Source: Anaeromyxobacter diazotrophicus (GTDB lineage: Bacteria > Myxococcota > Myxococcia > Myxococcales > Anaeromyxobacteraceae). Taken from it: a DNA stretch of 64,000 bases. A program made the translations under genes and the position numbers. The DNA lies in the NCBI RefSeq assembly GCF_013340205.1, contig NZ_BJTG01000008.1, forward strand, positions 186,001-250,000. Reading direction: 5' to 3'. Positions 54,299-59,981 of this stretch are shown piece after piece; the first letter of the stretch is position 1; every line of letters begins with the position of its first letter. A model generated the notes under the pieces. That model searched no databases, had not been told where the DNA came from, and was given only the letters and a program-made list of their open reading frames with translations.

Positions 54299-56077
54299 AT
54301 GCGATCCACCCTCCTCATCGTTGCCCTCACCCTCTCGTCCGCGGCCCGCGCCGCGGTGCCCTCGCCGGGCGCCGCCGCAGCCGCCGCCCAGCCGGCCGCG
54401 CCGGCGAACCAGGACTGCCTCGCCTGTCACGAGTCGCCGAAGCACGGCGAGCCGGACGCGGTCGGGCGCCAGGGCGTCGTGGCCGGCCTCTTCGGCCAGT
54501 CCGTGCACGCCTCCCTCGACTGCGTCGCCTGCCACGCCGGCTACACGGCGCCGGGCCCGCACGAGGTCGCCGCGCCCACCGATCCGGCCGACCAGGCCCT
54601 CCTCGCCCGGCTGACCGCCGGCAAGACGCCCGACGGCGAGCCCCGCGTGAAGTCGCCCCGCGCCTACCTGGCCTGCGGCGGCTGCCACGGCGACTCGGTC
54701 GACGGCTTCAAGGCCTCCAGCCACGCCAAGTGGCTGGTCGCCGAGACGGCGGTGGCCGGGCCCTCCTGCGCCAGCTGCCACGGCTCCCCGCACGAGGTGA
54801 CGCCGGCGCCGAAGCGCGGCACCGCCGAGTTCCGGCCGTACTGGGCGAAGCTCTCGAAGAGCTGCGAGGGCTGCCACAACGACCCGAAGTTCGTCGCCGC
54901 CGCGAAGCTCGACGAGGAGGTGGCGGTCAACTACCACGACTCCATCCACGGCCGGCTCGTCGCCATCGGCAGCCAGCGCGCGCCGCTCTGCACCGACTGT
55001 CACGCCTGGTCCGTGCGCCCCGACGGCGTGAAGGGCGCCCTGGCGGGCGGGCACGCCACGCTCTCCGGCAAGGGGATCGCCGCCTCGACGGTCGCCTTCG
55101 GCGAGCCGCCCAAGGACTCCGACCACCGGGTCCAGACCTGCGCCCAGTGCCACCGGGGCGCCTCGGCCAGCTTCGCCGCGCTCATCGCGCACAAGCAGCC
55201 GCAGGAGACGGGCCCCATCCCGCACTTCATCCACGTGATGTTCTCGTACCTCACGACCCTCACGCTGCTCTTCTTCGCCTTCCACGTGCTCGTCGACTTC
55301 ATCTACGAGCTGCGCCGGCGGTTCGGGAAGAAGCACGCGGCCGACGCGAGCCTGCTCACGCGCACGGTGGTGCGGTTCGACATCCACCAGCGCATCCAGC
55401 ACTGGCTCATGCTGGCGGGCGTCATCCTGCTCGCCATCACCGGCTGGCCGCTGCGCGGCGCGGGCGCGGTCGAGTCGATGGGCATGAGCGACTTCGCCCA
55501 GCGGGTCGAGTCCTCGCGGAAGTTCCTCGCCCTCTTCGGCGGGCCGCACGGCGCCGGGATCGTCCACCGCGTGGCCGCGGTGATGATCATCCTCTCCGGC
55601 GTCTACCACCTCGTCTACCTGACGTTCCTCGCCAAGAAGCGGACGCTGCCCCTGTCGATGGTCCCGACGCTCAAGGACGCCTTCGACATCCGCGACAACC
55701 TCACCTTCATGCTGGGGCTCAGCAAGGAGCGCCCGAAGTTCGAGCGCTACAACTACCTGGAGAAGTTCGACTACTGGGCGGTGTTCTGGGGCATCATCAT
55801 GATGGTGGGCTCCGGGTTCATCTTCTGGTTCCCGGTCCAGTTCGCGAAGGTGCTGCCCACCTTCGTCCTCACCAGCGCCCAGATCATCCACGGCGAGGAG
55901 GCGACGCTCGCGGCCATCTTCCTGTTCGTGGTGCACTTCTACAACGTGCACCTCAAGCCCAGCATCTTCCCCATGAACTGGGCCTGGCTGAACGGGCAGA
56001 CGACCCTCGAGTACATGAAGGACGAGCACGCCGCGGAGTACGACCGCGTGTTCGGCGAGGACAAGGAGCAGCGGTAG
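54299..56077 (+). CDS. Seven-heme cytochrome c fused to membrane cytochrome b
   Basis: A 592-residue protein with signal peptide. The periplasmic part (about 25-295) has seven CxxCH haem sites: CLACH, CVACH, CGGCH, CASCH, CEGCH, CTDCH and CAQCH. From about residue 305 a membrane part follows with at least four helices and conserved histidines (FAFHVLVDF, RIQHWLMLAG, GIVHRVAAV, VYHLVYL, FVVHFYNVH), matching the formate-dehydrogenase-gamma/cytochrome b561 type that binds two b haems. Such c/b fusions resemble Geobacter CbcL, and the separate CbcA/CbcB pair, which move electrons from quinol to periplasmic carriers. Confidence 0.9.
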   Translation: MRSTLLIVALTLSSAARAAVPSPGAAAAAAQPAAPANQDCLACHESPKHGEPDAVGRQGVVAGLFGQSVHASLDCVACHAGYTAPGPHEVAAPTDPADQALLARLTAGKTPDGEPRVKSPRAYLACGGCHGDSVDGFKASSHAKWLVAETAVAGPSCASCHGSPHEVTPAPKRGTAEFRPYWAKLSKSCEGCHNDPKFVAAAKLDEEVAVNYHDSIHGRLVAIGSQRAPLCTDCHAWSVRPDGVKGALAGGHATLSGKGIAASTVAFGEPPKDSDHRVQTCAQCHRGASASFAALIAHKQPQETGPIPHFIHVMFSYLTTLTLLFFAFHVLVDFIYELRRRFGKKHAADASLLTRTVVRFDIHQRIQHWLMLAGVILLAITGWPLRGAGAVESMGMSDFAQRVESSRKFLALFGGPHGAGIVHRVAAVMIILSGVYHLVYLTFLAKKRTLPLSMVPTLKDAFDIRDNLTFMLGLSKERPKFERYNYLEKFDYWAVFWGIIMMVGSGFIFWFPVQFAKVLPTFVLTSAQIIHGEEATLAAIFLFVVHFYNVHLKPSIFPMNWAWLNGQTTLEYMKDEHAAEYDRVFGEDKEQR

Positions 56078-56143: not shown

Positions 56144-57055
56144 TCACCCTCCGGCGGGCCGCGGGGCCGACGCGCGCCCCGCCCCGCGGAAGGCGTGGCA
56201 CGCGGCGCAGGCCCGGCCGCGAGCGTGCTCCGCCGCCTTCCCGTGGCAGCGCAGGCAGCCCTTCGGCTCGCTGCGCCACAGGTGGGCGGCGTGGCAGGAC
56301 GCGCAGGTCGCGTGCCCCCGGTGCGCGTGCAGGCCGGCGCGCGCCACGTCCTCGTGGCAGCTCTGGCATCGGACCAGCTCCTCGGCGTCCGTCCGCGCGT
56401 GCGGCTTGTGGCACGCCCCGCACTCGAACTGCATGGGGGCGTCGTCGGCGAAGCGGGCCGGCAGCACGCCCTCGGCGCGGTGGCAGTTGAGGCAGTCCCG
56501 CCGGGTGGGCCGCAGGCCCGGGTCGGTGGACAGGAAGTTGTGGCAGGTGAAGCAGTGCAGCTTCTGCATCCCGCTCTGCCGGACGAGGTGCTCGCCGTGG
56601 CACCCCTTGCAGCTCGCGACGACGGGCTCGAAACCGTGCACGCTGGCGGCGTGGCACCTCACGCACTCGATCTTGGCCTTGGCCACGTGGATGCGGTGCC
56701 CGCGCGATCCCTCTATCTGCGGCCAGCGCGTGTCGTGCGAGAGGTGGCAGGAGGCGCAGGCGCCGACCTCGACCCGACCGTGCGGCGCCGCGCCGTCGGG
56801 GCTCTTCCCGGCCAGGAAGGCGCGCAGCATGGCGAGCCCCTCCTGCGGGGTCGAGTGGTGGCAGCGCTGGCACGCGACGGTGCGGTGGCTCCCCTTCAGC
56901 CAAAGCGCGAACTCGGGCGTGCTCTTGTGGCACTGCGCGCAGAGCCGCGGGTCGGTGTCGACGTAGCGCTTGAGGCGCGCGGCGCCGTAGGCGGCGGCGA
57001 GGGCGGCCGCGGCGACGGCTGCGAAGGCGAGCTGGGCCAGGCGTCCGCGCGACAT
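56144..57055 (-). CDS. Membrane-anchored twelve-heme cytochrome c
   Basis: A 303-residue protein with one N-terminal helix (about 6-24), probably uncleaved, as in NapC/NirT proteins. Twelve CxxCH motifs follow, from CAQCH near residue 39 to CAACH near 285, including CKGCH, CFTCH and CGACH. The first third (CHKSTPEFALWLKGSHRTVACQRCH) has NapC/NrfH-like spacing. It should carry electrons across the periplasm from quinol or from the neighbouring c/b fusion. It is divergent from the histidine kinase gene with only 62 bases between starts. Confidence 0.9.
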   Translation of the reverse strand: MSRGRLAQLAFAAVAAAALAAAYGAARLKRYVDTDPRLCAQCHKSTPEFALWLKGSHRTVACQRCHHSTPQEGLAMLRAFLAGKSPDGAAPHGRVEVGACASCHLSHDTRWPQIEGSRGHRIHVAKAKIECVRCHAASVHGFEPVVASCKGCHGEHLVRQSGMQKLHCFTCHNFLSTDPGLRPTRRDCLNCHRAEGVLPARFADDAPMQFECGACHKPHARTDAEELVRCQSCHEDVARAGLHAHRGHATCASCHAAHLWRSEPKGCLRCHGKAAEHARGRACAACHAFRGAGRASAPRPAGG

Positions 57056-57117: not shown

Positions 57118-58589
57118 ATGAGCCTCCGGCTCAAGCTCTTCCTGCTCATGGCGGGCATCACCGTCTTCTCCACCACCGGCGTCACCGCGGTGGCGCTCTG
57201 GCGCGAGGTGCAGCGCGGCCAGGAGCTCCTCTACCGCGAGGGCGCGGCCATGGCGCAGGCGACCGCCTCCTCGGCGGCGCGCTGGCTCCGCCCGGACGGC
57301 GCGCAGCCCGGCGCCGGCGAGGCGCTCACGGCGGTGCTGGGCCGGCTGGTGGAGGCGGCGCCCCTCGACCGCGCCTGGGTGGTGGACCGCGCCGGCAAGG
57401 TGGTGGCCTGTGTGTCGCCCACCCACGAGGACTGCACGCCGGGGCCGCCGACCGAGTTCGCGCCGGCCGAGAGCCCGGTGCAGGCCCTCAAGCGGCTCAT
57501 CGAGCCGGAGGGGATCGTGACCGGCGCGCCCGTGCTGCGCGAGGGCGAGCTGGTCGGGGCGGTGCGGGTCGACTTCTCCCACGAGGAGGTGGTCGGCTCG
57601 GCGCGGCGCCTCGCCTGGAGCTCCGCGCTGGTGGCCGGCTTCTGGATCGTGCTCGGGCAGGCCTTCGCCGCGCTCCTCTTCGCCGGCATCGCCCGACCGG
57701 TGCAGCGGGTCATCGACGCGGCGCACGCGCTCGGGCGGGAGGAGGACGGCCGCCAGCTCGCGCTGCCCGCCGACCAGGAGCTCCGGGACCTGGTGGGCGC
57801 GTTCAACGCGATGAGCACCCGGCTGAAGGAGCGGCGCGACGAGAACCAGCGCCTCATCGCCACGCTGGAGAAGCGGGTCGAGGACAAGACGCGCGACGTG
57901 CTGCGCGCCGACCGGCTGGCGACCCTGGGCGGCATCGCCGCCGGGTTCGCGCACGAGCTCGGCAACTCGCTCAACGTCATCCGCGGCTACACGGCGGTGG
58001 TGCTGCGCGAGCTCCCGGCGGAGCACCCCAACAAGCCCGACCTGGAGGCGGTGAAGCGCGAGACGCACCGCGCCGCCTCGCTCATGGAGCGGTTCCTCGT
58101 CTTCGCGCGCAGCCGCACCACCCTCGTCACCCCGCAGCCGCTCGAGCCGGTCCTGCGCGAGGCGGTGGAGGTGGTGGGGCCCGCCGCCGCCCAGGGGCAC
58201 GTCCGGACCAGCCTCGAGATCGAGCCGGGGCTCCCCGAGGTGAGCGCCGACGCGGAGCTGCTCCGCCAGGCGTTCCTCAACCTGTGCGTGAACGCGGTGC
58301 AGGCCATGCAGCCCGGCGGCGGGACGCTGGCGGTGCGGCTCTTCGCCGACCGCGGCGCGGTGGTGGCCGAGTTCCGGGACTCCGGGCCCGGGATCGCCGC
58401 CGAGGCGCTGAAGCACGTGTTCGAGCCCTTCTTCACCACCAAGGCCAACGGCACCGGCCTCGGCCTCGCCATCGTCCGCCAGGCGGCGGAGACGCACGGC
58501 GGGACGGTCGAGGTGGAGAGCCGGCCCGGCCAGGGCGCGCTGTTCCGCGTCCGGCTGCCCGCCCGGGCGCCCGCCACGGAGGCGATCGC

Positions 58590-58593
<4 letters not shown>
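57118..58593 (+). CDS. Sensor histidine kinase
   Basis: A 491-residue membrane kinase. Two membrane helices (about 6-26 and 168-190) frame a periplasmic sensor of about 140 residues that contains two cysteines in VACVSPTHEDCTPG. A HAMP linker, then the phospho-acceptor His279 in AHELGNSLN, N box FLNLCVNAVQAM, G1 DSGPGI and G2 GTGLGLAI complete the kinase. Its stop overlaps the response regulator start (ATGA), so they form a cognate pair. Confidence 0.93.

Positions 58594-59981
<1,388 letters not shown>

Follow-up and report, generated by a model that had tools for sequence, protein, structure and literature searches.

A predicted seven-haem, five-helix cytochrome of the CbcL/MtrH/MtoC kind with a conserved twelve-haem neighbour in Anaeromyxobacteraceae

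Fusions of a multihaem cytochrome c to a membrane cytochrome b are, as such, already known. The CbcL/MtrH/MtoC family was described from 138 homologues in 15 phyla, with chains of 416-1034 aa carrying 3-23 haem motifs, and homology to the named members was accepted at a BLAST E value below 0.01 (PMC6295460). Most members have six membrane helices, with five in four of the published homologues and four in one (PMC6295460). As published, mtoC and mtrH lie beside mtrB (PMC6295460), and the CbcL of Geobacter is required for the use of low-potential acceptors, its c domain forming a redox complex with PpcA (PMC9129911). Anaeromyxobacter and its relatives respire metals and chlorinated compounds, and a homologue of ImcH is the only inner-membrane electron exit that we found assigned to them in the literature.

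The window that we analysed is a stretch of 64,000 nucleotides, positions 186001-250000 of one contig (C8) of a 4.83 Mb genome, the close relatives of which include named Anaeromyxobacter species. It contains a gene, read from an ATG in a single frame according to the list of open reading frames and its translation, whose 592-residue product is laid out as follows.

54299..56077, + strand: fused cytochrome, 592 aa, with an N-terminal seven-haem c domain, an anchor helix and a four-helix dihaem cytochrome b
54299..54364, + strand: probable signal peptide, about residues 1-22, with a hydrophobic stretch at 3-21 (from sequence and hydropathy)
54416..55153, + strand: seven CxxCH c-haem sites, residues 40-285
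55214..55324, + strand: anchor helix linking the c and b parts, residues 306-342 (AlphaFold2 model)
55373..55954, + strand: dihaem cytochrome b, PF01292/FdnI-like, helices within residues 362-552, with conserved histidines at 368, 423, 437, 531, 546 and 551

The CxxCH motifs lie at residues 40, 75, 126, 157, 189, 231 and 281, and 5000 shuffles of the protein's own residues gave a mean of 0.02 such motifs and never more than 2. Pfam places a Cytochrome_C7 match (1.6e-10) in the N-terminal half and Ni_hydr_CYTB (PF01292, 1e-9, above the cut-off) at residues 359-550. Genomes across Anaeromyxobacteraceae carry the same fused single chain, about 50-64% identical to this one, and a further copy is fragmentary, lying at a contig end; this recurrence excludes an assembly artefact as the source of the fusion. 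The central claim of a sequence-only reading of this gene, that seven CxxCH sites and a membrane cytochrome b share one frame, is thus borne out by the reading frame, the Pfam matches, the shuffles and the relatives alike. Even with two mismatches allowed, no sigma-54 promoter pattern was found near the gene, and a search of a plasmid collection returned no match.

The c domain appears to be built for electron transfer. All motif histidines are kept in the seven-haem clade, and so are several histidines outside the motifs: all 23 rows have those at 70, 142, 165, 217 and 298, and 20 have that at 88; a further one, near residue 252, is present in most rows, with a shift in the alignment. These seven (His298 standing just past the last motif) are likely the distal haem ligands. 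Among the relatives, five-haem proteins from Bdellovibrionota-type metagenome-assembled genomes (MAGs) are without the first two motifs, and His70 is gone along with them. Seven motifs matched by about seven conserved non-motif histidines would therefore fit bis-histidine c haems that transfer electrons, rather than an open catalytic haem.

Five long helices make up the membrane half (residues 306-342, 362-387, 415-446, 486-510 and 521-552), both in hydropathy and in an AlphaFold2 model that was built with 20 aligned homologues and is of middling confidence (mean pLDDT 72, lower in the c domain). The four-helix membrane domain of the sequence-only reading thus holds for the cytochrome b proper, but the membrane half as a whole has a fifth helix, the anchor. 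The last four helices have their best fold match in FdnI, the gamma subunit of Escherichia coli formate dehydrogenase-N (1kqf_C; Z 14.5, rmsd 3.4 across 205 residues); hydrogenase-1 cytochrome b comes second (Z 9.7), and a sequence profile search also ranks 1kqf_C first (4.7e-10). The fold search is informative for this half of the protein; for the c domain, a faint match or none at all says nothing about its fold. In the profile alignment His368, His423 and His531 coincide with His18, His57 and His155 of FdnI, and His546 falls one residue past FdnI His169, these four FdnI residues being its haem ligands. Residues 368, 423, 437, 531 and 546 are histidine in 96-100% of 56 homologues and in 20 of 20 rows of a closer set; an absence of b-haem histidines, named beforehand as evidence against the reading, was thus not seen. 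The FdnI-aligned histidines together with this conservation make two b haems in the membrane part very likely. By the same alignment the outer haem would sit on His423 and His531 and the inner one on His546 with either His368 or His437, the latter pairing being uncertain because His546, the last b ligand, does not align exactly with FdnI His169 but lies one residue away.

Relatives were found in 28 of 398 sampled Pseudomonadota genomes, and most of these are fused proteins with nine haems. In ten of the genomes mtrB/pioB is immediately followed, on the same strand, by the fused gene; in one further genome the two are no more than about 5 kb apart. These nine-haem proteins are homologous to the query in both domains, at about 25-30% along the full chain, and end in a C-terminal sixth helix that the query clade does not have. 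Other Myxococcota have more distant single-chain relatives, as do a Longimicrobiales MAG and MAGs labelled Oligoflexia or Bdellovibrionales. In distant lineages some fused relatives carry 14 to 19 haem motifs ahead of the b domain (L031 5830-8718, L101 179-3133, L056 1426-4011), and one protein from another family of the class (L054 976-3153) has an extension after the b domain with an extra helix and more haem motifs, ten CxxCH in total.

On this evidence the fused protein is, as judged from sequence, a member of the CbcL/MtrH/MtoC kind. It joins a multihaem c part (seven CxxCH) and a membrane b part (PF01292) in one chain of 592 aa and keeps the conserved membrane b-haem histidines, and its homology to the family was judged through the nine-haem fused proteins next to mtrB in ten genomes, which stand in for the named sequences. 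With five helices against the typical six it lacks the C-terminal one, which is within the range published for the family. The suggestion that it is a shortened CbcL, a one-piece quinol-to-periplasm bc module, gains support from the domain order, the b-haem histidines and the mtrB-adjacent homologues; the novelty implied for such a module does not stand, since the architecture had been published (PMC6295460). In the literature that we searched we found no description of a five-helix, seven-haem subfamily with a twelve-haem partner, which may be listed in supplementary tables, and the subfamily marked by seven c haems, no sixth helix and a twelve-haem neighbour may be undescribed.

Two other assignments find no support. 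A quinol dehydrogenase of the NapC/NrfH/CymA type is contradicted by the five helices after the c domain and by the b domain, with PF03264 below its cut-off. A known type of thiosulfate or tetrathionate reductase, which had been set beforehand as a finding that would speak against the reading, is not indicated either, as no such family is among the Pfam and NCBIfam matches of the query; a model for octahaem tetrathionate reductase gave a weak match in 2 of 52 homologues.

Downstream of the fused gene lie three further genes.

56144..57055, - strand: twelve-haem c-type cytochrome with an N-terminal membrane anchor and an NrfH-like start (conserved neighbour)
57118..58593, + strand: sensor histidine kinase with HAMP, HisKA and HATPase domains (domain matches, conserved synteny)
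58590..59981, + strand: NtrC-type response regulator (open reading frame, conserved synteny; type from sequence reading)

The first, with twelve motifs, is the only other haem-rich open reading frame in the window. A single hydrophobic anchor lies at the N-terminus of its product, the start of which is similar to NrfH (1.1e-6, well short of the model's cut-off). A homologous cytochrome, nearly always with twelve motifs, adjoins the fused gene in every seven-haem locus with enough flanking contig, and the kinase and the NtrC-type regulator come next across Anaeromyxobacteraceae. In Anaeromyxobacter loci the two genes share a strand, the twelve-haem gene lying 3' of the fused one; in the source species and in some other genera it has the opposite orientation, and because the two genes face opposite ways they are not in one operon in the source species. 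Compared across loci (56144-57055 on the - strand, against L013 7652-8695, L049 585-1415 and L021 5435-6355), the differences would fit repeated inversion of a single gene in place; a search for inverted repeats around the twelve-haem gene as the cause gave only short, imperfect, GC-rich matches. Both cytochrome genes are absent from the one other genome of the genus that was examined, an absence that is likely rather than certain at 92% completeness. Upstream of the cluster, two Anaeromyxobacter species have two tandem mreB-like genes (L016 1109-3389, L020 2517-5115), where the window has one.

Taken together, we consider it quite probable that the fused protein is a quinol:periplasmic cytochrome oxidoreductase of the CbcL/MtrH/MtoC type, which would feed the twelve-haem partner and, through it, acceptors further out, under the control of the kinase and the NtrC-type regulator. 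Quinol, most likely menaquinol in this group, would be oxidised within the four-helix b domain, and the electrons would cross the membrane from the inner b haem to the outer one. From there they could pass to the periplasmic domain with its seven bis-histidine c haems, then to the adjacent membrane-anchored twelve-haem cytochrome, which would carry them through the periplasm towards acceptors at the outer membrane. The module is probably controlled by the two-component pair beside it. CbcL of Geobacter is thought to work likewise, with nine haems and with electrons going to PpcA (PMC9129911). No MtrB/PioB was detected in the source genome, and hence no Mtr-type conduit was found; a porin-cytochrome pair of the Pcc type has been reported for Anaeromyxobacter (PMC4245776). 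A bolder and more doubtful idea, which we offer tentatively, is that the fused protein and the NrfH-like twelve-haem cytochrome form a dedicated and undescribed two-protein electron exit of the Myxococcota, in which the twelve-haem chain would be a membrane-tethered wire across the periplasm, replacing the small soluble carriers of Geobacter.

The module might instead run backwards and reduce quinone, drawing its electrons from cytochromes of the periplasm or from an external donor, as MtoC is proposed to do in Fe(II) oxidisers. Fe(III) reducers and Fe(II) oxidisers are both represented in the family, quinol oxidases as well as presumed quinone reductases, and the direction cannot be told from any feature of the sequence (PMC6295460); many of the nine-haem relatives adjoin mtrB. 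However, the Anaeromyxobacter strains in culture respire by reducing metals (PMC4245776, PMC2330069) and the MtrB/PioB search of the source genome was negative, and we regard the reverse direction as unlikely. We also think it rather improbable that the fused protein is part of a system dedicated to reducing one soluble acceptor, such as nitrite or tetrathionate, in which the twelve-haem neighbour would be either the reductase itself or the protein that donates to it. The c-domain profile does match NrfA, NrfB and NrfH and chains of the hydroxylamine-oxidoreductase type weakly, and the neighbour matches NrfH, but these matches, far below the family cut-offs, reflect the common packing of multihaem chains; moreover, candidate distal histidines for the c haems are conserved, and no catalytic subunit is apparent beside the two cytochromes.

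The same genome also encodes a split bc pair on another contig, C7 (L085 6814-8663), where a nine-haem c protein is followed by a dihaem-type cytochrome b. This two-gene module occurs across Anaeromyxobacteraceae, in a layout that resembles CbcBA of Geobacter. In a tree of the b domain with 71 rows, which is unrooted, has no named CbcA or CbcB sequences among its rows and was made after four long-branched fused rows (at least 11 haems) had been dropped from a first tree, the five-helix fused proteins form one clade of 31 rows that holds the query (support 99/93), with L054 counted here despite its added C-terminal helix; the six-helix fused proteins form another of 28 rows (100/96), and the split b subunits a third of 12 rows (100/100), with the query outside. 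As split and fused forms separate in this tree, we see no sign that the query arose by the recent joining of a CbcA/CbcB-like pair, and the suggestion that it is CbcA and CbcB joined finds no backing in a genome that keeps the pair separately and whose split-type b subunits fall, in the unrooted tree, in a clade of their own. An independent fusion of such genes, though mechanically easy at the split-pair junction because the c subunit ends in a hydrophobic helix comparable to the anchor helix of the fused protein, directly before the b subunit, is very unlikely given that the split b clade stands apart from both fused groups and that all five-helix fused proteins form one clade, albeit in an unrooted tree.

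For organisms of this kind, deletion has two concrete and conserved targets in the fused gene and the twelve-haem gene next to it, and the presence of fused and split bc modules within one genome provides a natural comparison.

Set against the known systems, the fused protein is like FdnI (1kqf_C) in how its membrane domain folds and in at least three b-haem histidine positions, but FdnI has no c haems and its partner is a formate dehydrogenase. With CbcBA of Geobacter it would have in common quinone oxidoreduction and transfer through multihaem c, which CbcBA divides between two chains, in contrast to the single chain here, and the split-type b subunits are a separate clade. For MtoC and MtrH, from Pseudomonadota that oxidise Fe(II) or reduce Fe(III), the likeness is that the nine-haem fused relatives next to mtrB are homologous over both domains and that the b-haem histidines are common to both; those systems differ in their nine haems, six helices and mtrB/mtoB neighbour, where the source genome has no MtrB/PioB match. 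CbcL of Geobacter sulfurreducens resembles it in having, in one chain, a periplasmic multihaem c domain followed by a dihaem b domain of the HydC/FdnI type with conserved membrane histidines, and in its proposed role of quinol oxidation in extracellular respiration (PMC6295460, PMC9129911). Unlike CbcL, with its nine c haems and six helices, the protein described here has seven and five, respectively, and adjoins a twelve-haem partner and a two-component system.
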